NCBI GenBank assembly: GCA_028275825.1
Contig: JAPWTX010000011.1
Location: 1-46,971 of the forward strand
Source of the DNA: Ignisphaera sp.
GTDB taxonomy: Archaea > Thermoproteota > Thermoprotei_A > Sulfolobales > Ignisphaeraceae
Direction: 5' to 3'
DNA: 46,971 nucleotides
In this document: positions 4,303 through 32,639 of the stretch, piece after piece
How the letters are laid out: each line of letters opens with the position of its first letter
How positions within the stretch are numbered: the first letter of the stretch is position 1
The notes under the pieces: generated by a model
Seen by the model: only the letters and a program-made list of their open reading frames with translations
What the model was told of the DNA's origin: nothing
Databases searched by the model: none
Position numbers and translations under genes: made by a program

Positions 4303-4386
4303 AAAGGTACCCCCAGCTTAAGCAGATTGCTATTATATAGAGGTTACTAAGAATAGCAAAAGATAAGAGATTTAGATGAGCATTCT

Positions 4387-11735: not shown

Positions 11736-12788
11736 TTAGAGATAGTATATAGCACCAAGATTATTCAACTCTTTTAATATATTATTGTAAAGGTCTTCTG
11801 ATTTAGAAAATTCTCTAATATTTCTAATAAGTGCTTTTCCATTATCTAAAAGCATTATATCAATATCACCAATCTTAATATAAGCAACTTTATCATCAAA
11901 TACCTTGATATACCTAAAACTATTGTTTTCTCTCAACTTAGAAAAATCTATCTTGAGAATTTTCTCAGGAAAAACTTCAATTATATTCGATCCACAAGCA
12001 TATCTAATTCTTTCACCTTCTCTCTTATTCAGAAAAATAAATTCTTTTTTAACGCAAGCGGGGCATTCAGGATTTCTATTCAATTTTATCTTACTAATAG
12101 TTAAGTCCAGTGCATCAACTACAAAAAGATCTTCTTCAACAGGTAATTCTAGTAAGTACTTTAAAGCTAAAGTTGATGCAATAGATGTTACTAGTGAAAC
12201 AATAGCATTTGATACCCCAATTACCTCACATACATTTTCTCTTCTTCTATATCTTCTACTAACTAGACATTGATAACAAGCACCTTTACTAGCATTAATA
12301 AATTTCGTCATACCATACCATCTTTCAACACCCATCATAATCCAATGTTTGTTAAGAACAATACAAGCTTCGTTTATTAATAACCTTGTCTCAATATTAT
12401 CACTACCATCAATTACAAGATCGACATCGCTAATGAGTTTCTCAATGTTATCAGCAGAAACACTATCAACTATATACTCTACACTAATTGAACTATTAAT
12501 CTCACGTAATCTCTTTGCACAGGAATATGCTTTTGGTAGATTTTCTAAAGCATCTGATTCTCTAAAAAGATGGGTTCTGTGCAGATTACTTAATTCAACA
12601 ACATCTCTATCTACAACCCTTATAAAACCAACGCCAGCTCGAGCTAAGAGCTCTGCTACGGCAGTACCTGTAGCGCCACAACCGATTACAATAACCCTGC
12701 TCTTAAAGAGTTTAGTCTGTCCTTTCACACCAATTTCTCTTAATATTATCTGCCTTGAATATCTCTCAACAAAGCTGGCTAGTTCCAT
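11736..12788 (-). CDS. ThiF/MoeB/HesA-family E1-like adenylyltransferase
   Basis: This 350-residue enzyme would adenylate the C-terminus of a ubiquitin-like sulfur carrier (ThiS, MoaD or SAMP type). The nucleotide loop GCGATGTAVAELLARAGVG is at ~36-54, followed by VDRDVVELSNLHR, DGSDNIETR and two zinc-binding CxxC pairs (CYQC and CPAC). The extra C-terminal ~100 residues have no motif that I recognise. The start ATG is preceded by GAGGA. An operator-like palindrome at 12801-12817 sits directly upstream, tying it to the sulfur gene set. Confidence 0.87.
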   Translation of the reverse strand: MELASFVERYSRQIILREIGVKGQTKLFKSRVIVIGCGATGTAVAELLARAGVGFIRVVDRDVVELSNLHRTHLFRESDALENLPKAYSCAKRLREINSSISVEYIVDSVSADNIEKLISDVDLVIDGSDNIETRLLINEACIVLNKHWIMMGVERWYGMTKFINASKGACYQCLVSRRYRRRENVCEVIGVSNAIVSLVTSIASTLALKYLLELPVEEDLFVVDALDLTISKIKLNRNPECPACVKKEFIFLNKREGERIRYACGSNIIEVFPEKILKIDFSKLRENNSFRYIKVFDDKVAYIKIGDIDIMLLDNGKALIRNIREFSKSEDLYNNILKELNNLGAIYYL

Positions 12789-12800
12789 CTATACATTCCT

Positions 12801-12817
12801 CTATAACATTGTTATTT
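12801..12817. promoter_or_regulatory. Sulfur-regulon operator candidate 1
   Basis: CTATAAC-ATT-GTTATTT is one of eight copies of the inverted repeat in this window. It lies 13 bases upstream of the ThiF-like start codon, next to its ribosome site, where a bound protein would block transcription or initiation. Confidence 0.6.
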
Positions 12818-12901: not shown

Positions 12902-14077
12902 TTAAAAATTAAGTGCTTGAGCTAAATCCTCTATAATGTCTTCAACATCTTCTAATCCTATAGATATCCGTACAAGATTATCTGTTATCCCAAGCTTTGG
13001 CCTATGTTCTGGGTCTATAAATTTTGCAGCTGCTTTCGACGGTATTACAGCCATAGACTCTGTCCCTCCGAGGCTTGGGCACCTTTTAATCAGTTTAAGA
13101 CTCTTCATAAACATTATGACATCGTTATAGCTACCTTTTAATCTAAAGCTTAGTACTCCTCCAAATAGAGGTCTCTCGAATAATTTCTTTGCAATGTCGT
13201 AGTAAGGATTCTTTGTAAGCCCTGGGTACATAACTTCTTCAACTTTTGGATGCTCAGCTAGATACTCTGCAACTGCTTGTGCACCTCTACTTTGTTTCTC
13301 AAATCTTACCTCAAGTGTTTTAACTCCTCTTAGAATCATGTATGCTTCAAATGGCTGCAGGATACCTCCAAGCATTCTTCTCCACTCCCATAGAGCACTT
13401 GTAATGTTTCTATAACCAGCAATAATACCTCCAACAACATCATTATGACCGCCAAAGTACTTCGTCATGCTGTGAACAACAAGTTTAGCACCATATTCAA
13501 TAGGTTTTATTAGTATCGGTGTTGTAAATGTATTATCAACTACAAGAACTACTTTATCTAGTAAATCTAGATGTTTGTGTAAGTATTCAAGATCTATAAC
13601 CTTGTTCGTAGGGTTTGTTATAACCTCTACAAAAATAATAGAAGTACTGCTATCCACTGCTTTAACAATTGATTCAGCTGATGGCCAAACTTTTTCAACT
13701 TTTACACTAAGCTTAGGAGATAGGTTATCTAAAAGAGCAAAAGTTGAACTGTAAAGCTCCATAGGTACAACTATTTTTCCACCTGGCTTCAGATAGTTTA
13801 GAAGTGTAGTCGAAATTGCTGCCATACCACTGTTAAAGGCAAGAGCATCCTCGGCATTCTCCAGCTTTGTAACAACTCTTTCTAAAGCTCTTGTAGTTGG
13901 ATTCTCTTCTCTACCATAGCGAAGATAATTCCCTCTATCAATAAATATAGCTTCACCAATTTCATAATCTATGTATTCATAGACAACACCCAGATAAATT
14001 GGTGGTATATGAGAACCTAGCGAATCTTTATGCTCATGTCCATGAATGGCATCTGTGGAAAGCCTTCCCCTACCCAT
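12902..14077 (-). CDS. Cystathionine gamma-synthase/lyase family PLP enzyme
   Basis: This Cys/Met-metabolism PLP enzyme (gamma-elimination or replacement) has ~391 residues from the chosen start. Visible features are the early RLSTDAIHG, the YxRxxNPT-like YGREENPTTRALE, FNSGMAAIS, VDNTFTTP and the PLP lysine in VHSMTKYFGGHNDVVGG. The C-terminal half has SLGGTESM and VRISIGLED. Whether it makes cystathionine, cleaves it or handles homocysteine cannot be told. The ATG at 14077 is chosen over the GTG at 14086 because GGTGA ends just before it. It is divergent from CysO, and both could use the operator at 14143-14159. Confidence 0.9.
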   Translation of the reverse strand: MGRGRLSTDAIHGHEHKDSLGSHIPPIYLGVVYEYIDYEIGEAIFIDRGNYLRYGREENPTTRALERVVTKLENAEDALAFNSGMAAISTTLLNYLKPGGKIVVPMELYSSTFALLDNLSPKLSVKVEKVWPSAESIVKAVDSSTSIIFVEVITNPTNKVIDLEYLHKHLDLLDKVVLVVDNTFTTPILIKPIEYGAKLVVHSMTKYFGGHNDVVGGIIAGYRNITSALWEWRRMLGGILQPFEAYMILRGVKTLEVRFEKQSRGAQAVAEYLAEHPKVEEVMYPGLTKNPYYDIAKKLFERPLFGGVLSFRLKGSYNDVIMFMKSLKLIKRCPSLGGTESMAVIPSKAAAKFIDPEHRPKLGITDNLVRISIGLEDVEDIIEDLAQALNF

Positions 14078-14142
14078 AGTTTTCACCTAGTGTTTTAATA
14101 ATCCATATTATTGAAAACCTTTTAAATTTTCTTTTTATAAAA

Positions 14143-14159
14143 CTATAACATAGTTATAG
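14143..14159. promoter_or_regulatory. Sulfur-regulon operator candidate 2
   Basis: CTATAAC-ATA-GTTATAG has perfect 7-bp arms. It lies in the divergent interval between the transsulfuration enzyme and CysO, beside the AT-rich box CTTTTTATAAAA at 14131-14142, so it could control both genes. Confidence 0.65.
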
Positions 14160-15534: not shown

Positions 15535-16428
15535 TTAAGTATTTATTGATTCTAGTGTAGGTATAACTTTTTTAGGAAGTAGCTCATCTAAGCTTCCACT
15601 TCTGTATCCAAGTAGATCTAATGTAACATATTTGTATCCAAGTTTTTGTAATTCAAGCGCTATGCTATCCATTACTTTTTCGTCGAAAAATTTTCTTCTC
15701 TCGTTTGGATAAACCTCTATTCTAGCTATATAACCGTGATCACGAACTCTAACCAGTGATACTTCCGTTAATTTTTTCACTATTTTCTCTGCTTCAGCTA
15801 TTCTCTTCAATTTTTCAACAGTTATAGTTTCTCCATATGGTATTCTAGATGCTAAACAAGCCATGGGGGGTTTATCCCAGTTCGGAAGACCAAGAGCTTT
15901 TGCTAGCAACCTAACTTCGTCTTTCGTTACACCAACTTCTGCTAAAGGACTTCTAACACCTTTTTCTTTGAATGCTAAATACCCTGGTCTATGTGTATTG
16001 AGATCTGATGCATTTGTGCCATCAACTATTGCTTTTGCATTCAATTTCTTTGCAATGTCCAGTAATGCTTTTGCAAGAGATTTCTTACAGTAATAACACC
16101 TATTGAAAGGATTGGAAACGAAGTTTGGATTTTCTAGTTCATCGCTTTCAATAAGAATATGTTTAACATCGAAAATTTTTACAATTTCTTTTGCCCAATA
16201 AAGATCTTCTTCTGGATAGGTGGGAGATATAGCTGTAACAGCAATAACATTTTCTCTATTAAGCGCATGAACAGCTGTAACTAAAACAACAGAGCTATCA
16301 ACACCTCCTGAGAAAGAGATTATAATGGGTTCTCCAACTGTTTTAAACCATTCTATAAGTTTATCAAATTTGTTCTTCAACTCATCTCCAAGTATTGAAT
16401 AATTAATTGAGATTTCTTTAATCTCCAT
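15535..16428 (-). CDS. larE: LarE-like ATP-dependent sulfurtransferase (PP-loop)
   Basis: This PP-loop ATP pyrophosphatase has SFSGGVDSSVV near the N-terminus, the LarE-type NPFNRCYYCKKSLA, VDGTNASD and MACLASRIPYGE. LarE proteins donate sulfur, often sacrificially from a Cys, to the nickel-pincer cofactor; related proteins serve other thiolations. The cofactor partners LarB and LarC are not in this window, so the substrate is open. The ATG at 16428 is preferred over the GTG at 16446 because GAGGGT lies between them. An operator copy is at 16484-16500. Confidence 0.87.
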   Translation of the reverse strand: MEIKEISINYSILGDELKNKFDKLIEWFKTVGEPIIISFSGGVDSSVVLVTAVHALNRENVIAVTAISPTYPEEDLYWAKEIVKIFDVKHILIESDELENPNFVSNPFNRCYYCKKSLAKALLDIAKKLNAKAIVDGTNASDLNTHRPGYLAFKEKGVRSPLAEVGVTKDEVRLLAKALGLPNWDKPPMACLASRIPYGETITVEKLKRIAEAEKIVKKLTEVSLVRVRDHGYIARIEVYPNERRKFFDEKVMDSIALELQKLGYKYVTLDLLGYRSGSLDELLPKKVIPTLESINT

Positions 16429-16483
16429 AGCCAAACCCTCAACCACATAACTACATCATAGGCTGAGTTTATAATCCTAACAC

Positions 16484-16500
16484 TTATAACAAAGTTATTC
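16484..16500. promoter_or_regulatory. Sulfur-regulon operator candidate 3
   Basis: TTATAAC-AAA-GTTATTC lies 56 bases upstream of the LarE-like start, in the divergent interval shared with the DUF438 gene. The arms match at six of seven positions. Confidence 0.55.
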
Positions 16501-16737: not shown

Positions 16738-18060
16738 GTGTCATATTTGGATATGAGTAGAAAAATAGATCTAGTTAAAGAACTATTGAAATCTATACAT
16801 AGAGGGGTAAGTGTCGAAGAATTGAAGAAGAAGTACAGCGATATATTAACGCAGATATCACCCATCGAGATACCTTTGATTGAGCAGCAGCTTGTTAGAG
16901 AGGGTATTAGAATAGATGATATCTTAAAGCTTTGCGATCTTCATGTAGAGCTCTTTAGAGAGTTTCTGCAGTCTCGTGAGCTTAGGGGGGTTCCTAAAGG
17001 TCATCCAGTAGACCTGTTTATGAGGGAGAATGAGTGGATTTTGAAACAAGCTGAGGCTCTTTCACTATATGTATCTGCATTTGCTAATACAACTGATGAG
17101 AATTCTAGAAAGAGTTACTTTGAAGTGGTGAAGAAGATATTGTCTGAGCTTAAAAAGATTAGGCTTCACTATAGAAAGATACAGATGCTTGTATTTCCAT
17201 ACCTTGAGAGGAGAGGAATAGCTGCCGTTCCAAGAGTTTTATGGGGTAGAGAAGATCAGGCAATGGTGAAGATCAGGCAATTATTAGAACTATTACCTAA
17301 AATTAATATTGTTGATACGTCTTCAGCTAAACTAGTGTCTGAAAAAGCTTTAGAGATTGCTAAAGAGGTTAGCGAGCTTGTGTTCAGAGAAAACAAGATT
17401 CTGTACCCAGCAGTATATGCACTGTTTAGTGAGGGTGAGTGGGTCGCTATAGCTGAGATAGCTAACGAGATGGGCTGGCTGATAGATATCGGGGAAGTTG
17501 AGTGGAAACCTAGTGCAAAACCTGTACTACCATATGAAATAGATGGAAGGATCTCACTTCAACAAATTGAGGCATTGCCACAAGAGTTTAGGTCAATGGC
17601 TTTAGCTAAAGGTGTTGAACCTGATAACTATGTAGTTAAGAGAGATAACGATATAGAGCTTTCAACAGGTTTCCTAAAACCTAATGAGGTTGACGCTATA
17701 TTCAGGTCTCTACCTCTAGAGACCACATATGCTGATATCAATGATAGGGTGAGGTTCTTTAGCGAGAGCAAGCTTGGCAGAGGTTTTGTAAGGACGAAGA
17801 CGATCCTTGGTAGGAGGATAGAGTTTTGCCATCCACCAAGGCTAGAGAAGCTAGTTAGACAAACTGTTGACGAGCTAAAGCAGGGTAAGGAACCCTATAG
17901 AGAGTTCTGGACAAAACTTGGAGACTCCATAATAAGGGTCCTTATAGTCCCTGTGAGGGGAGCTAATGGAGAGTACTTGGGCACAGTAGAGATTGTTGAA
18001 GATATGACTGAGATACTTAACAAACCTGAGGAGATTAAGAAGAAGATAATGGTGCTTTGA
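16738..18060 (+). CDS. DUF438/hemerythrin-like/PAS sensor-type protein
   Basis: This 440-residue cytoplasmic protein has an N-terminal DUF438 domain (~1-75, EELKKKYSDILTQISPIEI). A helical hemerythrin-like middle follows with repeated acidic/His positions (GHPVDLFMRENEW, LHYRKIQMLVFPYLE, FRENKILYPAVYALF). The C-terminal PAS domain (~320-430, ADINDRVRFFSES...RIEFCHPP...EYLGTVEIVEDMTE) could bind heme or flavin. Such proteins are thought to sense O2, NO or redox state. The start is GTG with a GGTGAT ribosome site. Its stop overlaps the start of an HTH regulator and flavodiiron protein follows, an arrangement that points to oxygen or NO response. Confidence 0.8.
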   Translation: MSYLDMSRKIDLVKELLKSIHRGVSVEELKKKYSDILTQISPIEIPLIEQQLVREGIRIDDILKLCDLHVELFREFLQSRELRGVPKGHPVDLFMRENEWILKQAEALSLYVSAFANTTDENSRKSYFEVVKKILSELKKIRLHYRKIQMLVFPYLERRGIAAVPRVLWGREDQAMVKIRQLLELLPKINIVDTSSAKLVSEKALEIAKEVSELVFRENKILYPAVYALFSEGEWVAIAEIANEMGWLIDIGEVEWKPSAKPVLPYEIDGRISLQQIEALPQEFRSMALAKGVEPDNYVVKRDNDIELSTGFLKPNEVDAIFRSLPLETTYADINDRVRFFSESKLGRGFVRTKTILGRRIEFCHPPRLEKLVRQTVDELKQGKEPYREFWTKLGDSIIRVLIVPVRGANGEYLGTVEIVEDMTEILNKPEEIKKKIMVL

Positions 18061-18446
18061 TGAAGAGTGTCTACGAAATTTTATATAGATATGTATTACC
18101 AGCAATTAAGAAGAGGCTTGCAGAAGAGCTTCAGCTGCTAGGCTTCACAGAAAGAGATGTTGCAGAGATGCTCTCAGTATCTCAACCTTTGATATCTAGA
18201 TATAATAGGGGTGAAAGAGGTACCACTATAGATATTAAACAGTTTAAGGACCTAGATCTAAAGATAAAATATTTAGCTAGACAAATAGCTGAGAAAAAAC
18301 TAGACCCTATACAAATATACAGCGATCTCCATAAACTTGCAGCATACTTCATGGAGAAAAGATATGGATGTAAATTTCATAGAGAACTCGATGGTATAGA
18401 CCCAGGAAGATGTAATGTATGTCCAACGATATTCAACATCAAATAA
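18060..18446 (+). CDS. HTH transcriptional regulator with C-terminal Cys/His cluster
   Basis: This 128-residue protein has an N-terminal helix-turn-helix (LGFTERDVAEMLSVSQPLIS, ~25-44) of the archaeal Xre-like predicted regulator group (COG2522-type). The C-terminal YGCKFHRELDGIDPGRCNVC could bind a metal or Fe-S cluster. The start ATG overlaps the DUF438 stop by one base (TGATG), so the two are translationally coupled. It is related in layout to the HTH protein at 30066-30383. A redox- or metal-responsive regulator of the flavodiiron gene 40 bases downstream is a reasonable inference. Confidence 0.78.
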   Translation: MKSVYEILYRYVLPAIKKRLAEELQLLGFTERDVAEMLSVSQPLISRYNRGERGTTIDIKQFKDLDLKIKYLARQIAEKKLDPIQIYSDLHKLAAYFMEKRYGCKFHRELDGIDPGRCNVCPTIFNIK

Positions 18447-20856: not shown

Positions 20857-20873
20857 CAATAACATTGTTATAG
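20857..20873. promoter_or_regulatory. Sulfur-regulon operator candidate 4
   Basis: CAATAAC-ATT-GTTATAG lies 21 bases before the FTR1-like ATG and ~110 bases from the thioredoxin reductase start. Its position fits control of the permease. Confidence 0.55.
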
Positions 20874-20894
20874 AAACATTTGGTGTCCGATAAA

Positions 20895-21737
20895 ATGGAT
20901 CTTCAAAGTGTGTCGCTAGCAATAATATTTTCAAGTTTTTTGGTAACATTTCGTGAAGCTTTTGAAGCAATACTACTAATGGTTATACTGATATCATATT
21001 TGAAGAAAACAGATGAAGTATTCTTAATAAAACCTGCTTACATGGGGGGCTCGCTGGGTGCTGTAATCAGCGTTACTGCTGGGGTCACTCTATACTTGCT
21101 GTATATATCAATAGATTTGGACTTAGCTGAAGCAATTGCGTCATTCATTGCTGTTCCAGTTATTACTAGCGTTGTTTACTGGATGGCTACTAAAGGTAGG
21201 GAGGTGATATATAAAGGTGTTACTAAAGCTATTGCTGGAGGTGTTGTAGGAGTTGTATTTACCGCATTTGTGTTCGTATTTAGAGAAGGTCTTGAAACAG
21301 TTTTGTTAACGCAGCCTTATGCACTTCGTGATATTGTAAGCACCTTCATAGGCATCCTACTTGGCTTAATAATTGCTTTAGCTATTGGCTACCTATTTTA
21401 TCGTGGTGCTTTAAAACTAAGTTTACGAATATTTTTCGTTATAACATCTATTCTTTTAGTTTTAATAGCTGGCGGTATATTGGGTTACGGTGTACATGAA
21501 TTCATAGAGTATCTGGAAAAGAATAGTTATGAGCTTGGTATTTGGAGAGAATATGCATATAAGTTACCAATAGACAGAAGTAATGTTCTATATGACAAGA
21601 ACATTGTAGGAGCTATATTAGCTTTAATGTTTGGATATGCTACAAAAATGGAGTTACTTAGATTCGTTGCTCAAATATCATACCAGATACTTGGCGTAAT
21701 CATTTTGTTAAAAATATATTCTAAACCTAAGAGATAA
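20895..21737 (+). CDS. FTR1-family iron/divalent metal permease
   Basis: This ~280-residue integral membrane protein has about seven hydrophobic segments. Two copies of the family's R-E-x-x-E iron-binding motif are present: FREAFEAILL in the first segment and FREGLETVLL in the fourth. FTR1/EfeU proteins import iron; this one lacks the periplasmic EfeO-like domain. The ATG at 20895 follows GGTG by eight bases; TTG at 20880 and GTG at 20883 are alternatives. An operator copy immediately upstream links iron uptake to the sulfur/Fe-S gene set. Confidence 0.87.
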   Translation: MDLQSVSLAIIFSSFLVTFREAFEAILLMVILISYLKKTDEVFLIKPAYMGGSLGAVISVTAGVTLYLLYISIDLDLAEAIASFIAVPVITSVVYWMATKGREVIYKGVTKAIAGGVVGVVFTAFVFVFREGLETVLLTQPYALRDIVSTFIGILLGLIIALAIGYLFYRGALKLSLRIFFVITSILLVLIAGGILGYGVHEFIEYLEKNSYELGIWREYAYKLPIDRSNVLYDKNIVGAILALMFGYATKMELLRFVAQISYQILGVIILLKIYSKPKR

Positions 21738-24534: not shown

Positions 24535-25017
24535 CTAGTTTGTTTGCATAGTTTGTTCATATACGTATGCTGTATCTTTAGTAAAAGCATATATTGTAAG
24601 GGGTTCTTTTAATTTTCCTTGCATTCCAGGGGATCCTGGAGGCATTCCAGGCAATGCTATTCCAAGTATATTTGGTTTCTCTTTCACAAGTTTAGTAATA
24701 ATACGGAATGGTACATGACCTTCGATAACATATCCTTGAACTATACTTGTATGACAAGAATATAGGTTTGGAGGTATACCTAGCTGTTTCTTTATCTCTG
24801 CAAGCTTTTCCTCAGCTACATAAGTAATGTTGACGATTACACCTTTACTTTTAAGATAATCAATGTATGCTAAACAACAACCACAATTCTCTTCAGCATA
24901 AACTGTAGCTACTATCTCTACCTCCTCCTTATATTGTCTATAATAGATTACACCACTTAGAATTAAAATCGTTACGAGAATAGCTAAAACTATTTTCATG
25001 AAAAACCGTTTATTCAT
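24535..25017 (-). CDS. DUF411-family metal-binding protein, membrane-anchored
   Basis: About 160 residues. An N-terminal hydrophobic segment (IVLAILVTILILSGVIYY) would anchor or export it. The DUF411 core follows: ENCGCCLAYIDYLKSKG with the CGCC site, then YSCHTSIVQGYVIEGHVP and LPGMPPGSPGMQG. DUF411 proteins are linked to copper or other metal binding, but the function is unproven. ATG at 25017 (MNKRFFMK) is chosen because AGGTCA precedes it; ATG at 25041 is an alternative. It follows the acylphosphatase gene on the same strand. Confidence 0.83.
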   Translation of the reverse strand: MNKRFFMKIVLAILVTILILSGVIYYRQYKEEVEIVATVYAEENCGCCLAYIDYLKSKGVIVNITYVAEEKLAEIKKQLGIPPNLYSCHTSIVQGYVIEGHVPFRIITKLVKEKPNILGIALPGMPPGSPGMQGKLKEPLTIYAFTKDTAYVYEQTMQTN

Positions 25018-25053
25018 GGTATGACCTAGACAGCGAGCCATATATATCAACTC

Positions 25054-25371
25054 TTATAAATCTTCTTCTCCTAGACATTTAATTATAGTAAAGTCGTTAT
25101 ATATCCCTGTATACATTTTTTCTAGCATTTTTACATAGTCTATTCTATAAACTTTATTCATCATAATCCTGTTCGCAAATTCGTCTATAACAGATTTCTC
25201 GCCTTCAACGTATATATTTACACAATCTTTACCTTGAATATTCTCTACATAACCTTTTAAATTTAAAGTTTTTGCTATTCTCCAAACATATCTTCTAAAA
25301 CCTACACCTTTAACTTCTCCACATAATGTAATGAGTAGAGCTTTATTCTTAAAAACTGTTTGCTGTGTCAT
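25054..25371 (-). CDS. acyP: Acylphosphatase
   Basis: This 105-residue protein shows the acylphosphatase signature: CGEVKGVGFRRYVWRIAKTL with the phosphate-binding Arg, then LKGYVENIQGKDCVNIYVEG with the catalytic Asn region. It hydrolyses acyl phosphates. The C-terminal ~20 residues are longer than the ~90-residue norm. It lies four bases after the SelD-like stop and is co-transcribed with it. Confidence 0.88.
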   Translation of the reverse strand: MTQQTVFKNKALLITLCGEVKGVGFRRYVWRIAKTLNLKGYVENIQGKDCVNIYVEGEKSVIDEFANRIMMNKVYRIDYVKMLEKMYTGIYNDFTIIKCLGEEDL

Positions 25372-25375
25372 GGTT

Positions 25376-26797
25376 TCACACTAATTTGAATTGAGATAAT
25401 ATTTTCTGATCAGCAATGTATTCCCTAAGTTTCTTCGGTGCTATAACCTCTGGTTTACCTTTTTCAATAACTTCTCCTATTACTGAAGGTTCTAATCCTC
25501 TTGATTTAAGCTCTTTAACTAAGTCATCTACAATGCCATCTGATGCGATTATTATAAATGGACCGTTTGTACCAGCTATAGCATTAGGAATTATATAAAG
25601 TTTTGTATCTATCCTAGATATCTCTGGGAATAAGAGTGGTACCTCGAACAACCTTATTTTTGTACCTGTTCTCTCAGCTAATTCCCTGACAACAAATATT
25701 CCAGGGCCTGTAACATCTGTTGTTACAGCTATATGTTCTTCTTCTTTAAACTCTTCAGAAATATCTGGGAGATACTTGTATATAGCTATAGCTGCTTCAA
25801 TATTTGGTTTAGATATTAACTCTACTGCTCTATTTTTAGCTTTCTCAACTTCATCGAATGAGATGCCGTAGCTCTCTAAATCTTTAATTATGCTTTCATC
25901 AATTATAGAGGATAGGTAGAGATTTATAGGGGCGAGTTCACCCATAGGTCTTGTTATAATAAGCTTCATCCCAGGCTCAACTCTATCTTCAAACATAGGC
26001 GGCTTTCTATCACTGTAACCCATAACTGTTCCCCCCATCAAGAGTCTTCCCCGCTTTGGCAGTACTTCATTAATTATCTCCACATTATATTGTTTAGCAA
26101 AAAACTCAGCATTTCTCCATAGTTTTTCTAATAGTTCTCCTGTTGGAGCATTTAATACAGGGATCATCCTTAGTTTTTTATGTACACCTAGGACAAATAT
26201 ATCGTTGAGTGAATTACTTATAGCTCCGCTTATCTGCTTTATATCGCCAGGTTCTTGGGAAGGATCAATTATATGTATAGTATCATTATTTACTGCTACA
26301 ACTCCTTCTCTACTACTAATATGAGGTATAAAGTCAAATAGTGCAAATTCGTCTTCTGGAAATGGTGTTAATATTGAGTGTCCTTTACCAATAGTTATGG
26401 AGTTTTTAGATCGGGATAAAGCTTTATATATTGGTGCTATTTTTTCTAGAAAACCCTCCGGGGAATCTGCATACCTTTGAAATACCTGAATAACTGTTAT
26501 AGCGTATAAATTTCTACCTTTAGATATAGATTCTAAGTCTTCTAAAGAAACATCTCTATCGCTACCCAAAGAGTATATCCTTCTATACACTTCATCAATA
26601 TCGCCAGGAATAATTAGAGCATCTTCTCTTGGAGCTATATAAAGATTCAATCCTTTGAGTTCTTCTCTAAGCACTTTTATAGATGGGTAAACAACTCTTA
26701 AAAGATCAACCTTAACAGCACAACCAGTAGCCAATGCTAAAGGATTTAAACCAAGATCTTTATAATACTTTATTCTCTCCAAAATGTCTTCAAACAA
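25376..26797 (-). CDS. SelD-related (selenophosphate synthetase-like) AIR-synthase family protein
   Basis: This ~473-residue ATP-dependent enzyme of the PurM/SelD fold is longer than classical SelD (~345). Near the N-terminus LALATGCAVKVDLL matches the GCxxK active site of SelD, with the Cys and Lys in place. Later motifs are GGTVMGYSDRKPP, DRVEPGMKLIITRPMGE, DVTGPGIFVVRELAERTG and GTNGPFIIIAS. TTG at 26797 is preferred because GAGGTGA sits just upstream, after the tusA stop; an ATG at 26830 inside tusA is also possible. It probably activates selenide or sulfide as a phosphorylated species, given TusA and YeeE/YedE next to it. Confidence 0.78.
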   Translation of the reverse strand: MFEDILERIKYYKDLGLNPLALATGCAVKVDLLRVVYPSIKVLREELKGLNLYIAPREDALIIPGDIDEVYRRIYSLGSDRDVSLEDLESISKGRNLYAITVIQVFQRYADSPEGFLEKIAPIYKALSRSKNSITIGKGHSILTPFPEDEFALFDFIPHISSREGVVAVNNDTIHIIDPSQEPGDIKQISGAISNSLNDIFVLGVHKKLRMIPVLNAPTGELLEKLWRNAEFFAKQYNVEIINEVLPKRGRLLMGGTVMGYSDRKPPMFEDRVEPGMKLIITRPMGELAPINLYLSSIIDESIIKDLESYGISFDEVEKAKNRAVELISKPNIEAAIAIYKYLPDISEEFKEEEHIAVTTDVTGPGIFVVRELAERTGTKIRLFEVPLLFPEISRIDTKLYIIPNAIAGTNGPFIIIASDGIVDDLVKELKSRGLEPSVIGEVIEKGKPEVIAPKKLREYIADQKILSQFKLV

Positions 26798-26802
26798 TAC
26801 TC

Positions 26803-27054
26803 TCACCTCTTCACAATAGTTATTCTCCACACACCTCTCTCGATATTTTCAACCGAGAGAACTTCATGACCATCTTCTTTAACAGCTCTAGGCACATTCT
26901 CACAGGATGGTGGATTGTCCGTTAATACTTCCAGCACCTCACCATTGTTAAGTTTAGCTAACACTTTCTTTGTATAGATTACTGGATATGGACATGTATA
27001 CCCTCTTACGTCTAATAAATATCTCCCTTCATTAATTTTTACAAATTTCACCAT
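26803..27054 (-). CDS. tusA: TusA/SirA-family sulfur carrier 1
   Basis: This small sulfur-relay protein has LDVRGYTCPYPVIYTKKVLAK with the CPxP active site; the Cys carries persulfide or selenium. The rest matches the beta-alpha-beta fold (EVLEVLTDNPPSCENVPRAV). ATG at 27054 is chosen because GAGGA lies six bases before it; ATG at 27060 directly touches that site. It is first in the tusA-selD-like-acylphosphatase-DUF411 series, divergent from YeeE/YedE, with operator copy 6 directly upstream. Confidence 0.9.
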   Translation of the reverse strand: MVKFVKINEGRYLLDVRGYTCPYPVIYTKKVLAKLNNGEVLEVLTDNPPSCENVPRAVKEDGHEVLSVENIERGVWRITIVKR

Positions 27055-27064
27055 ATGCATTCCT

Positions 27065-27081
27065 CTATAACTTTGTTATTA
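27065..27081. promoter_or_regulatory. Sulfur-regulon operator candidate 6
   Basis: CTATAAC-TTT-GTTATTA lies 10 bases before the tusA ATG and overlaps the start-proximal leader. Confidence 0.6.
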
Positions 27082-27170
27082 TACTAGTAAACGAACAGTA
27101 CTTAAAAACTTAACTCTAGGGACACAGATCATCTTATTACTATTTCAAGTTATACTATTAATGCTTAAAT

Positions 27171-27187
27171 CAATAACTATGTTATAG
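27171..27187. promoter_or_regulatory. Sulfur-regulon operator candidate 7
   Basis: CAATAAC-TAT-GTTATAG lies 24 bases before the YeeE/YedE ATG. Together with copy 6 it gives the divergent tusA and yedE promoters one operator each. Confidence 0.6.
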
Positions 27188-27211
27188 ATAATATAATTAA
27201 GGGTGAGCGAT

Positions 27212-28417
27212 ATGACATCTAAAGAAATGGGTTTTAAGGATTTCATAAGACAGAAATTGGAAAAGATTTTTGGGAGTAAAGGTTGGAACAGTATAATAGC
27301 TGGTATATTAATAGGCCTAGTAAATATAATGTCATATATTTGGGTTAAGAAGCCATTTACAGTGTATACAGGGCTCCTAAACTGGGGTCAGCATATATAT
27401 AGCTTAATTGGGTTAAGTAGTATTGCTGGAGCACCAAAGCTTATACCGTTACTTGAACCTACTAGTGCTGGGGATATCGGTGCAATTATAGGAGCTATGA
27501 TTGCAGCAACTCTTGCTAATGAATTTGCTGTTAGGAGGGTTAGTAATAAGGTAGAGGTTTTTGAAGCTATAGCTGGAGGCGTTTTAATGGCTTTAGGAGT
27601 TGCATTAGCTTTTGGATGTAACTGGGGAGGATTCCTATCAGCTATAACATCATGGAGTTTACATGGATTTGCATTTCTAGTAGGAGCTATTATCGGAGGC
27701 TATTTAGGACTTAGGTACGTAGCTTGGAAAGCTGAGAGAATAATAAAAATAGTAAGTAGCAGCAGTGAAGAGTTTACCCAGATCCTTAATGTTAGTAATG
27801 CTAGGAAAGGTTTAGGCAAATATATGGCATTGGCGATAGCTATAATCATACTAACACTGTTAATTGCTTACTACGCTAGTATTGGTAGCCCAATGGTAGG
27901 AGGGTTGTTCATAGGTATAGCTATCGGTATACTTCTCCAAAGGGCAAGATTTTGTTTTGCAACAGCATTCAGGGATCTATTCAATGGACCTGAAAATGCT
28001 AGAGCGCTAGATATACATAAAGGTATAGCTATAGCTATTTTAACAGGCTCTATAGGGGTGTTTGCCTTAAAGTTCATGGGTATGGTTAAAGAGGATATAG
28101 GTGTAGCCCCGGTTCACATAATAAATATTCTAGGAGGACTGGTATTCATATTCGGATCAGTTCTAGCTGGTGGTTGCGCATCAGGAGTTTTATGGCGTAG
28201 TGGTGAAGGGCATGTCAAAGCGTGGATAGCATTATTGACAACAGTACTAGCATACCCAATATTCTCTCAATTAATAAGACCATATGTAGCTAATAATCCA
28301 AAGATATTTATACCGTATTCAATAGGATGGATTCAAGCATTTATCTTCATGATAATATTTGTAGTGCTCTACACACTATTCATACACTATTTAGAATATA
28401 AATATAGATATAGATGA
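27212..28417 (+). CDS. YeeE/YedE-family sulfur/selenium transporter
   Basis: This ~401-residue integral membrane protein has two Sulf_transp repeats and roughly 10 hydrophobic segments. The conserved Cys sites are LAFGCNWGGFLSA, RARFCFATAFRDLF and LAGGCASGVLWRSGEGH. Family members move thiosulfate or related sulfur compounds, and YedE has been proposed to move selenium. ATG at 27212 follows GGGTGA (27201-27206) by five bases; GTG at 27203 is less likely. It is divergent from tusA-selD-like. Confidence 0.9.
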   Translation: MTSKEMGFKDFIRQKLEKIFGSKGWNSIIAGILIGLVNIMSYIWVKKPFTVYTGLLNWGQHIYSLIGLSSIAGAPKLIPLLEPTSAGDIGAIIGAMIAATLANEFAVRRVSNKVEVFEAIAGGVLMALGVALAFGCNWGGFLSAITSWSLHGFAFLVGAIIGGYLGLRYVAWKAERIIKIVSSSSEEFTQILNVSNARKGLGKYMALAIAIIILTLLIAYYASIGSPMVGGLFIGIAIGILLQRARFCFATAFRDLFNGPENARALDIHKGIAIAILTGSIGVFALKFMGMVKEDIGVAPVHIINILGGLVFIFGSVLAGGCASGVLWRSGEGHVKAWIALLTTVLAYPIFSQLIRPYVANNPKIFIPYSIGWIQAFIFMIIFVVLYTLFIHYLEYKYRYR

Positions 28418-30065: not shown

Positions 30066-30383
30066 TCATGGTATTTGTATTTTTATATGTGGTCTTATTC
30101 TCATACATATTTCGCACATCTCTATAGATTTTCCCTGCATTAATTCATCTGAGAATTCTCTTATTACTTTGTACATTTCAGTATTATTCAATATTTTTTC
30201 AAGACCCCTAATTTTCCTTCTTCCTTGTATAACATAGTTAATTAATGGTTGTGGTAATTTAGTTAATTTTGCTACTTGGAATTGAGACAAGCCATATCTT
30301 TTCATGAGGTCTAAAGCTATAGCGATTCTCACAGTAGTTGAATAATTCTTTATAAATACTTCGCAAAAAGATTTAGTTATCAT
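30066..30383 (-). CDS. HTH regulator with C-terminal CxxC, inside the Fe-S/sulfur cluster
   Basis: This 105-residue protein has an N-terminal helix-turn-helix (GLSQFQVAKLTKLPQPLINY, ~31-50) of the same Xre-like group as the protein at 18060-18446. The C-terminus carries SIEMCEICMRIRPHI, a CxxC that could bind an Fe-S cluster, a metal or persulfide. It begins four bases after the second tusA stop, so it is expressed with IscU-IscS. It is the best local candidate for the protein that reads the CTATAAC-N3-GTTATAG operator, by position and Cys content; this is inference. Confidence 0.75.
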   Translation of the reverse strand: MITKSFCEVFIKNYSTTVRIAIALDLMKRYGLSQFQVAKLTKLPQPLINYVIQGRRKIRGLEKILNNTEMYKVIREFSDELMQGKSIEMCEICMRIRPHIKIQIP

Positions 30384-30387
30384 TTTA

Positions 30388-30624
30388 CTACACCTCTAAA
30401 CTATCTACTGTTTTCTCTAAATATATTTCGTAGTAGTTATCTACATTATATACCTCGATTTTGGCTATTTCAAAAACCTCTATTGTTTGTTTCAGCATCT
30501 TTACGCAATCTTTTGATGTTGTTAAAACCACAAGTTTTTCGCCTTTCCTTAACTTTGACAAAACTGTTATAGTTTTCACCAAAGGTCCTGGGCATTCCTC
30601 GTTTCTAAAGTCTAAACGCTTCAT
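30388..30624 (-). CDS. TusA/SirA-family sulfur carrier 2
   Basis: This 78-residue sulfur-relay protein starts LDFRNEECPGPLVKTITVLSK, with the CPxP site and its single persulfide Cys, and has a second Cys in TSKDCVKML. ATG at 30624 overlaps the region just past the IscS stop and is preceded by TGGAGA; ATG at 30636 is an alternative. It probably accepts persulfide from the adjacent cysteine desulfurase. Confidence 0.87.
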   Translation of the reverse strand: MKRLDFRNEECPGPLVKTITVLSKLRKGEKLVVLTTSKDCVKMLKQTIEVFEIAKIEVYNVDNYYEIYLEKTVDSLEV

Positions 30625-30626
30625 TG

Positions 30627-31850
30627 TTATCTCCATGCACTTATCTTCCTAAGCCTTTCAACAGCTTTTGGAATAACATCTAAGGTATAATCTATATCCT
30701 CTTCTCTGTGGTAGTGAGATAATTTAAATAGTATGCTGCCATGTGCTTCTTCATGTTTTCTACCAATAGCTAATAAAACGTGGCTAGGCTCTAAAACTCT
30801 GCTACTACAAGCACTTCCACTTGAAACATAAATTCCATGAAGACTTAGCTCTACTGTGAGAGCCTCTCCTTCAACTCGAAGGAAACTCATATTAGCATTA
30901 TTATCAACTCTCATACCCCCTACTGGTCCGTTTACAAGTACTTCTGGTACTCTATCCAAAATACCTTTCATAAGTTTATCTCTGAGGTTCTTCACATAGT
31001 TAACTCTATAATTGAAATTACTAAACATTATTTCAACAGCTTTCTTAAACCCTGCTATAAGTGGTACATTTTCAACGCCTGGCCAAAGCTTCTCAACGCT
31101 TAGTTGTCCTTTCAATGGTGATTCTAATTCTACACCTTCTTTAACATATAGAGCTCCTACTCCTCTAGGTCCGTGAACTTTATGCCCACTTATCGTTAAC
31201 ATGTCAATATTAAGTTTCTCTACATCGATAGGAATCCATGAATAAGCATCAGCAGCATCTGTGTGGAACACAGCATTGGGGTTAGCAGATTTCACAATAT
31301 CAATAAGATCTTTTATTTTCTGAATAGTTCCTATCTCGTGATTAACTGTTTGGATACTAACCAATATAGTATCTTTATCTATGTAGTACTTTAGCATCTC
31401 TGGATCTACAAAACCCTCTCTATCTACAGGAACAAGAACTACTTTAAAACCAAAAAGTTCAGATGCAAATCTCGCTGGAAAAATTACACTTAGGTGTTCT
31501 ATAGCTGATACAACTACTTTTTTTCCTTTACCTTTATCTCTATTCTTGAGTAGAAAACCAAGTATTGCCAGGTTATTTGCTTCTGTACCGCTATGCGTAA
31601 ACACAATATTTTCCGGGTTACGAATACCAAGAGTTTTTGCTATAAGCTCTTTAGTTTCATAAACGATTTCTAGCGACTCCCAACCAATTCTATGGGTTAT
31701 CGAGGGATGTCCAAATCCTTTTTTATTGAAATAAGGCATCATTGCCTCTACAACTTCATCAGGAATGAAACCACTATTCTCTAGATCAAAATAGATCTCC
31801 TTTTGAGGTGTTCCATGAGACTCTAGTAGTTCTTTAACTTTCCTAGACAT
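30627..31850 (-). CDS. iscS: Cysteine desulfurase (IscS/NifS)
   Basis: This 407-residue PLP enzyme removes sulfur from cysteine for Fe-S and thio-cofactor synthesis. It has HSGTEANNLAIL, HTDAADAYSW, the PLP lysine in SGHKVHGPRGVGALY and the catalytic Cys in SSGSACSSRVLEPSHVL. It lies between a TusA-like gene (two bases upstream) and a TusA gene (two bases downstream) in the iscU-led operon. Confidence 0.95.
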   Translation of the reverse strand: MSRKVKELLESHGTPQKEIYFDLENSGFIPDEVVEAMMPYFNKKGFGHPSITHRIGWESLEIVYETKELIAKTLGIRNPENIVFTHSGTEANNLAILGFLLKNRDKGKGKKVVVSAIEHLSVIFPARFASELFGFKVVLVPVDREGFVDPEMLKYYIDKDTILVSIQTVNHEIGTIQKIKDLIDIVKSANPNAVFHTDAADAYSWIPIDVEKLNIDMLTISGHKVHGPRGVGALYVKEGVELESPLKGQLSVEKLWPGVENVPLIAGFKKAVEIMFSNFNYRVNYVKNLRDKLMKGILDRVPEVLVNGPVGGMRVDNNANMSFLRVEGEALTVELSLHGIYVSSGSACSSRVLEPSHVLLAIGRKHEEAHGSILFKLSHYHREEDIDYTLDVIPKAVERLRKISAWR

Positions 31851-31852
31851 AG

Positions 31853-32101
31853 CTAACCCCTTTTCCTAGCTATCATTAGTATAATTCCTTCACTGATTTT
31901 CTCAACTTTCTCTGCAAAGTAATTGTATTTAGATAGAAATAGTTTCAATGCATTTTCAGGTATATCCTCTTCTCTAAAAATTATCTTAATTTCATCAAAA
32001 CCTTCAGATGCTACTGAAGGTAGTAAATTACTAATTTTTATAATTGGATGAGAAGTACAACCAGCAGAAATATATCTAAGATCTAATTCCTTAACCTTCA
32101 T
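31853..32101 (-). CDS. TusA-like protein with altered active site (CTSHP)
   Basis: This 82-residue protein has TusA-like length and strand/helix order: an early ELDLRYISAGCTSHPIIKIS where TusA has LDxRG..CPxP, then EGFDEIKIIFREEDIPENAL. The Cys is kept but the CPxP is replaced by CTSHP. It overlaps the IscU stop by four bases and ends two bases before IscS, so it is a fixed part of the cluster. It may be a dedicated sulfur shuttle between IscS and IscU. The family call is by pattern and is tentative. Confidence 0.5.
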   Translation of the reverse strand: MKVKELDLRYISAGCTSHPIIKISNLLPSVASEGFDEIKIIFREEDIPENALKLFLSKYNYFAEKVEKISEGIILMIARKRG

Positions 32102-32613
32102 CTAACCTCACCTAGAGCTTTCATAGATTTATAGTACCTCTCCATCATCTCCTCTTCTTCAAACACTTGTTTCTCCTCAATTGTTAAATCTTTTGGTAGC
32201 CACTCAGGATGCTTCCCAATTTTCTTATAATAAGCCCTTACACCCCTCTTCAAAGCTCCTACAGCTAAAATACTACAGTGATATTTTATCGGTGGTAACC
32301 CCCCAAGTTCATCTGATAGCATTTTCCACGAAATTCGCCATGCATCTTCAACTCTTTTACCTTTTATCATCTCAGTTAATATACTCGCAGCAGCAATATT
32401 AGCTGCACATCCATAGCTTTCAAAAGTAGCTCTCTCTACAATATCTTGACCATCAATATTTACAATCTTTAGGTAAAGCCTAATCATGTCTCCACAAGCT
32501 GGACTACCGGCGCTTTCAACAATAGTAGCATCTTCTAATGGACCAAGGTTCTTAGGATTACGAAATATTTCAAGTACCTTAGGACTATAGGGCAATGGTA
32601 TTCTAGTACTCAT
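32098..32613 (-). CDS. iscU: Fe-S cluster scaffold, IscU/NifU N-domain type
   Basis: This 171-residue scaffold assembles [2Fe-2S]/[4Fe-4S] clusters. The three cysteines are in SPACGDMIRLYL (with the regulatory Asp), YGCAANIAAAS and KYHCSILAVGALKRGVRAY. ATG at 32613 (MSTRIP) is chosen; the longer GTG start at 32631 would lie inside the operator. First gene of iscU-tusA-like-iscS-tusA-HTH, all within four bases of one another. Confidence 0.93.
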   Translation of the reverse strand: MSTRIPLPYSPKVLEIFRNPKNLGPLEDATIVESAGSPACGDMIRLYLKIVNIDGQDIVERATFESYGCAANIAAASILTEMIKGKRVEDAWRISWKMLSDELGGLPPIKYHCSILAVGALKRGVRAYYKKIGKHPEWLPKDLTIEEKQVFEEEEMMERYYKSMKALGEVR

Positions 32614-32622
32614 TTTATTCAC

Positions 32623-32639
32623 CGATAACACTGTTATAC
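32623..32639. promoter_or_regulatory. Sulfur-regulon operator candidate 8
   Basis: CGATAAC-ACT-GTTATAC lies nine bases before the IscU ATG. The TATA-like TTTATAACTTT (minus strand, ~32645-32656) is just beyond it, so the site sits between promoter and start codon. Confidence 0.6.

Follow-up and report, generated by a model that had tools for sequence, protein, structure and literature searches.

The window analysed here is the whole of contig JAPWTX010000011.1 of Ignisphaera sp. (46,971 nt), one contig (47 kb) of the 1.81-Mb genome of a heat-loving archaeon, and it carries a group of genes centred on a homologue of SelD, referred to below as SelD-like. The initial annotation described this gene as coupled to tusA and facing a gene for a YeeE/YedE transporter, with an operator for each side and with acylphosphatase and DUF411 genes following, and this arrangement was borne out by the open reading frames and their family matches:

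24535-25050, minus strand: DUF411 protein, closing the tusA-led gene run (PF04214, 83.7 bits)
25054-25371, minus strand: acylphosphatase (AcP) with catalytic Arg26 and Asn44 (PF00708, 61.3 bits)
25376-26830, minus strand: SelD-like protein (NF038049, SelD_rel_HyperS; by NCBIfam, AlphaFold2 model and fold search)
26803-27060, minus strand: TusA1, a TusA-type sulfur carrier with a CPYP cysteine, C23 (PF01206, 90.5 bits)
27066-27080: predicted operator palindrome for tusA-SelD-like-AcP, TATAACTTTGTTATT, 6 bp from the tusA start
27172-27186: predicted operator palindrome for yeeE, AATAACTATGTTATA, 31 bp from the yeeE start
27203-28417, plus strand: YeeE/YedE-family transporter, with Sulf_transp in two halves (PF04143, 148 bits)

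Read from its GTG start, the SelD-like frame codes for 484 aa, but a TTG at 26797 (473 aa) is probably the true start, since it aligns with the ATG of a close relative (L041) and is served by a GGTGA site that overlaps the TusA stop. With a ribosome-binding site placed across the tusA1 stop codon in this way, translation of the two genes may be coupled.

The SelD-like protein matched NCBIfam model NF038049 ('SelD-related putative sulfur metabolism protein') with 607 bits over residues 16-482 (cut-off 250), which places it in this known family, and it fell below the cut-offs of models for true SelD (TIGR00476, 28 bits against 125; PRK14105, 56 bits against 291). The GCxxK site that had been pointed out reads G-C37-A-V-K40, and both C37 and K40 are invariant in 39 of 39 relatives, as are D183, N206, D210, D372 and the K149-GHSI motif. 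In a profile alignment with true SelD (98.2%, E 5.5e-14), N206 corresponds to N87, D210 to D91 and D372 to D227, and D183 was assigned to SelD D68 by motif. Structure comparison upheld the relationship to SelD: an AlphaFold2 model (predicted local distance difference test, pLDDT, 91.3; predicted template modelling score, pTM, 0.90) had human SEPHS1 and E. coli SelD as its best PDB matches (E 1e-17), followed by HypE, ThiL and PurM. A profile search against PDB sequences gave no match, and these relatives were found by fold comparison alone. The protein shares with SelD (E. coli, 3u0o; SEPHS1, 3fd5) the fold, the CxxK site and the equivalents of D68, D91, D227 and N87, but the identity is ~17% and the chain is longer, much as first estimated (~130 residues; 484 aa against 347 aa in E. 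coli SelD, or ~137). Most of the extra length is an insert of ~95 residues between C37 and D183, which carries an invariant GKGHSI (residues 149-153) resembling the GGHSI motif of SelD, and the place normally occupied by GGHSI reads GGTVMG. Modelled alone (pLDDT 94), the insert had HypE chains as its best Foldseek matches (E 1.4e-3), a weak likeness to the HypE N-domain. An origin of the insert by internal duplication of the PurM N-domain is not supported by profile comparison, which did no better than with column-shuffled controls.

The family was described by Li et al. 2014 (BMC Genomics 15:908, PMC4210487) in Sulfolobales and Thermoproteales, with the catalytic Cys kept, SirA/TusA and Prx-like proteins encoded by neighbouring genes and an acylphosphatase fused in Thermoproteales; a thiophosphate model of sulfur metabolism was proposed, the Desulfurococcales were said to lack the gene, and none was reported outside the Crenarchaeota. 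The locus in the window agrees with that account in family, TusA neighbour and acylphosphatase partner, and the SelD-like, TusA and acylphosphatase core, together with the sulfur proposal, is therefore already published. The text of that paper makes no mention of the shared operator, of an operon with an unfused acylphosphatase, or of YeeE, YedE, pfam04143 or Thaumarchaeota; the link to YeeE and that to the local sulfur and iron-sulfur (Fe-S) gene set appear to be new. Reviews of 2022 and 2026 repeated the proposal without new data, and the latter still describes it as speculative (PMC13188914).

An alignment-based scan of genome contigs gave 57 SelD-like loci, and neighbourhoods were counted at 52 intact ones (51 from named genomes, plus the window). 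Relatives retain much of the gene group, as would be expected of the module that the initial annotation had supposed: 43 of the 52 loci have tusA within 6 kb, and in 32 it directly adjoins the SelD-like gene in the same orientation; acylphosphatase is present in 29 (fused in 10, adjacent in 19), and yeeE and rhodanese genes occur within 6 kb in 20 and 12 loci, respectively. The commonest gene order, found whole or in part, is yeeE-tusA-SelD-like-AcP-tusA2; most relatives have yeeE upstream and co-directional, and the divergent layout is peculiar to the genus of the window. In the congeners L039 and L041, a homologue of TusA2 (the second TusA of the window, listed below) is encoded directly after AcP inside the SelD-like operon, with a ThiF/E1-like gene directly downstream of it. 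Metagenome-assembled genomes (MAGs) of marine Thaumarchaeota (L071, L072, L079, L080) carry SelD-like-tusA-tusA-rhodanese with yeeE nearby; the rhodanese in these operons, and in those at further Thaumarchaeota loci with two TusA genes, is 3-mercaptopyruvate sulfurtransferase-like.

In a tree of SelD-like proteins, every AcP-fused form falls in a single clade. Thermoproteota families make up the main YeeE-linked clade, along with records that carry the names Geothermarchaeota and Thaumarchaeota. The marine Thaumarchaeota form a clade of their own, so that linkage to YeeE is seen in two distant groups of the tree. Transfer between lineages is likely, bearing in mind that MAG labels can be wrong. 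Across 398 genomes of the phylum (counts uncorrected for kinship), 44 have both SelD-like and YeeE genes, 14 SelD-like only, 28 YeeE only and 312 neither, an odds ratio of 35; a phylogenetic profile of the trio had been put forward as a check. Within the genus of the window, the two SelD-like carriers in this sample also have YeeE, and the four non-carriers lack both. We count YeeE as a member of the SelD-like gene set: it adjoins the family in two widely separated clades and co-occurs with it in the sample of 398 genomes. Members of the family were also found among Thaumarchaeota, both marine and from groundwater, and in Desulfurococcales-like lineages, and the label of 'hyperthermophilic sulfur-reducer' is too narrow for a range that extends to marine and groundwater archaea. 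A divergent SelD-like subgroup scored close to the cut-off (232-267 bits) in G227, G390, G215, G283, G326 and G354, of family f50, another Thermoproteota family with genomes of ~3 Mb; in the two genomes above the cut-off, YeeE was not found.

The partner proteins keep their functional residues. The Cys of the TusA CPxP motif is present in 62 of 63 family members, the catalytic Arg and Asn of AcP in 21 of 21, and Cys139, Cys251 and Cys325 of YeeE in 16, 20 and 21 of 22 homologues. Acylphosphatase is encoded by a separate gene in the window and is fused to the SelD-like C-terminus in Thermoproteales; it is a core partner of the family and no bystander. A derivation of AcP from HypF was rejected, as ordinary acylphosphatase models score better. 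This partner, including its fused form, would be accounted for directly if the SelD-like enzyme worked in the manner of HypE or PurM, phosphorylating a carboxylate or amide oxygen to give an acyl- or imidoyl-phosphate, attack on which by TusA-borne sulfur would yield a thiocarboxylate or thioamide-type product, with acylphosphatase clearing stray acyl-phosphate. The HypE, ThiL and PurM folds do rank close behind SelD, and the ThiF/E1-like gene after TusA2 in the congeners would also suit such chemistry. However, the SelD-type CxxK is invariant and, like that of SelD, lies in the N-terminal part, the Cys used by HypE being C-terminal, and SelD models outscore the HypE model (56 bits for PRK14105 against 28), so that this chemistry is considered rather unlikely.

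A congener, G398 (a sister species), retains the island but has lost AcP, SelD-like and TusA1 together. In the scar (L142 14227-14757, contig C50), 78 bp from the 3' end of DUF411 (window 24553-24630) and 313 bp from YeeE (window 28047-28359) remain, and the three genes were removed by one deletion. A scar with such remnants means that the common ancestor had the module and that the G398 species can do without it. A second gap in G398 covers DsrE-HHE, and the FprA gene of this stretch is in pieces as well. Loss in a congener and a patchy distribution, along with the DUF411, DsrE-like and hemerythrin genes alongside, could be taken to indicate that the whole group, these genes included, is not biosynthetic and instead relieves stress or detoxifies (an excess of thiosulfate, polysulfide or sulfite, or metal-chalcogen stress). 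DUF411 and hemerythrin are not retained near the family elsewhere, though, and the spending of ATP on an activated sulfur compound would be an odd way to detoxify; a stress function is therefore judged improbable.

The operators proposed for the two sides of the locus are both real palindromes, with counterparts at the matching position of two congeners (L039, L041/L042), and have WATAACNNNGTTATW in common. The consensus is WATAACN3GTTATW, with half-sites AAC-N3-GTT. The window has 16 matches (two mismatches or fewer) against 5.9 expected, a number reached by none of 100 shuffles, and of the nine exact copies in the genome, seven are on this contig (binomial p ~3e-10). Sites begin at 12802, 14144, 16485, 20858, 24372, 27066, 27172 and 32624, and lie 6 to 71 bp from the nearest start. 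The seven exact copies precede the ThiF-like, cystathionine gamma-synthase, LarE-like, FTR1/thioredoxin reductase, hemerythrin-like, tusA and yeeE genes, and a near-exact copy (32624-32638) is found at IscU. The features concerned, beyond those already given, are:

11736-12788, minus strand: ThiF/E1-like protein (PF00899; operator site 12802-12816)
12902-14086, minus strand: cystathionine gamma-synthase/lyase-type enzyme (PF01053; operator site 14144-14158)
15535-16446, minus strand: putative LarE-like PP-loop protein (weak PP-loop Pfam matches; operator site 16485-16499)
18057-18446: HTH_A, a small helix-turn-helix (HTH) protein with C-terminal cysteines
20880-21737, plus strand: FTR1-family iron permease (PF03239; operator site 20858-20872)
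30066-30383: HTH_B, a small HTH protein with C-terminal cysteines, within the IscU/IscS run
30388-30636, minus strand: TusA2, the second TusA (PF01206, 51.1 bits)
32098-32631, minus strand: IscU-like scaffold, heading a run of IscU, an 82 aa protein, IscS, TusA2, HTH_B and a ThiI-like protein (PF01592)

The name LarE is suggested by our own reading of the sequence, the Pfam PP-loop matches being weak. Its operator (16485-16499) is shared with a divergent DUF438 gene at 16738 (DUF438-HTH-FprA). In the congener G398 (L142), sites at 4311, 5646, 7985, 12338 and 18269 stand at five syntenic genes, IscU among them, and in G377, which belongs to another family, copies are found next to FTR1 and further genes, with eight exact copies against one in a reversed-pattern control. 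Genome-wide counts in most other relatives were not above this control, and the claim of a regulon rests accordingly on the clustering in the window, the synteny in G398 and the excess in G377. These suggest that the palindrome is the operator of a predicted regulon for sulfur metabolism, Fe-S assembly (IscU/IscS) and iron uptake, to which the run from IscU to the ThiI-like gene, like the SelD-like module, likely belongs. HTH_A and HTH_B may be its regulators. The position of HTH_B in the IscU/IscS run is comparable to that of bacterial IscR. The core motif of SurR is GTT-N3-AAC, and the half-sites described here are its inverse.

The same three superfamilies occur together in the bacterial YedE/YedF/SelD set for selenium use (PMC5322559), with which the initial annotation had compared the locus, but membership in that set did not hold up. 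YeeE is below the cut-offs of the selenium YedE models (selen_YedE_FdhT, 149.7 bits against 350; the other model, 51.2 against 200), TusA1 is below those for YedF (68.5 bits against 79 and 50.1 against 110), and the DsrE domain of YedF is missing from TusA1. Searches of the window's genome gave no match to SelU, no tRNA-Sec above the gathering score and no SelB above the cut-off (SelA/SecS and YqeB/YqeC were not searched), and true SelD, present in 14 of the 398 genomes, occurs in none of the 58 with a SelD-like gene; use of selenium by the module is therefore unlikely. The eight best hits to the tRNA-Sec model RF01852 proved on checking to be tRNA-Ser, Leu, Arg and Gly, and SelB-like hits below the cut-off read as ordinary translation GTPases. 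It could still be argued that the SelD-like protein is a true selenophosphate synthetase that serves some other use of selenium, given that it has the fold and catalytic residues of SelD and that models of selenium YedF and YedE are among the best family hits of TusA and YeeE, yet these hits are below cut-off. The negative searches for SelU, tRNA-Sec and SelB, the lack of overlap with true SelD and the co-regulation with sulfur and Fe-S genes all speak against it, and we regard it as very improbable. The suggestion of sulfur rather than selenide made in the initial annotation is supported by these same negative searches and by the operators at sulfur and Fe-S genes.

Taken together, the data lead us to favour, with modest confidence, an archaeal module for sulfur uptake and ATP-dependent sulfur activation. 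For its substrate, product, direction of flow and the role of acylphosphatase, we infer the following scheme. YeeE would import thiosulfate (or a similar sulfane-sulfur ion) and TusA1 would take the sulfur onto its CPxP cysteine, a relay modelled on the work on YeeE and YeeD of E. coli, where YeeE requires a TusA-type partner for thiosulfate uptake and the acceptors of that sulfur were called unknown (PMC11073785), and on the thiosulfonate carried by TusA in Metallosphaera (PMC4175335). The SelD-like enzyme would accept the sulfur at Cys37, with ATP and metal held by D183, D210 and D372 and with Lys40 and Asn206 assisting, and would convert it to an activated form that carries phosphate, most likely thiophosphate, much as SelD makes selenophosphate. 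Acylphosphatase would hydrolyse a phosphoryl intermediate or by-product, which is the weakest step of the model, and the product would supply the co-regulated users of sulfur, namely the cysteine/homocysteine enzymes, IscU/IscS and thiolation enzymes. Sulfur rather than selenium as substrate is held more firmly than the model as a whole, and thiophosphate as the exact product less firmly. The arrangement resembles YeeE-YeeD (TsuA-TsuB; PMC11073785) in having a YeeE-type transporter, with the three conserved cysteines, beside a CPxP TusA-type carrier, but the pair in the window is below the TsuA and TsuB cut-offs, and it is followed by SelD-like and acylphosphatase genes that are foreign to the bacterial pair.

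Several points weigh against this scheme. YeeE does not reach the cut-offs of the TsuA thiosulfate subfamily (101.9 bits against 400 and 97.1 against 645) and was undetected in 14 of the 58 SelD-like genomes, some of which are incomplete. The tusA and SelD-like genes are not adjacent in Sulfolobaceae. Retention of the metal-binding Asp residues, a point on which the initial annotation had placed weight, holds for the equivalents of D68, D91 and D227 and fails for that of D51, where the family has E, Q, D or S (39 sequences); on this alignment, the statement of 2014 that every Asp is retained goes slightly too far. In the true SelDs of Thermoproteota aligned here, D51 is replaced too (Asn/Ser). 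Acylphosphatase acts on carboxyl-phosphates, and the synthesis of thiophosphate does not obviously explain it. Biochemical data were found in the literature for no member of the SelD-like family.

In the sulfur-activation scheme, the YeeE partner points to thiosulfate as the likely source of sulfur and to TusA as the delivery protein, and gives a testable product. The SelD-like enzyme becomes a candidate for the acceptor of YeeD-bound sulfur (PMC11073785). A more specific proposal, offered tentatively, is that these archaea assimilate thiosulfate by a route in which the enzyme turns imported, TusA-carried sulfur into inorganic thiophosphate as a general activated sulfur donor, and that it is the missing acceptor of sulfur borne by YeeE and TusA, with control by the operator that also serves Fe-S assembly and iron-uptake genes. 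If thiophosphate is indeed made, sulfur would have an activated form analogous to selenophosphate, which would be relevant to the question of whether the use of selenium arose from a sulfur pathway.

A separate observation concerns true SelD genes of Thermoproteota. Those at loci L159-L161 (genomes G106, G237 and G249) each have one in-frame TGA, which in L160 and L161 is at the active-site position (HGUSCK), so that selenocysteine-containing SelD, and probably the decoding of selenocysteine as well, exist in this phylum, which is not mentioned under that name in the 2026 review (PMC13188914).

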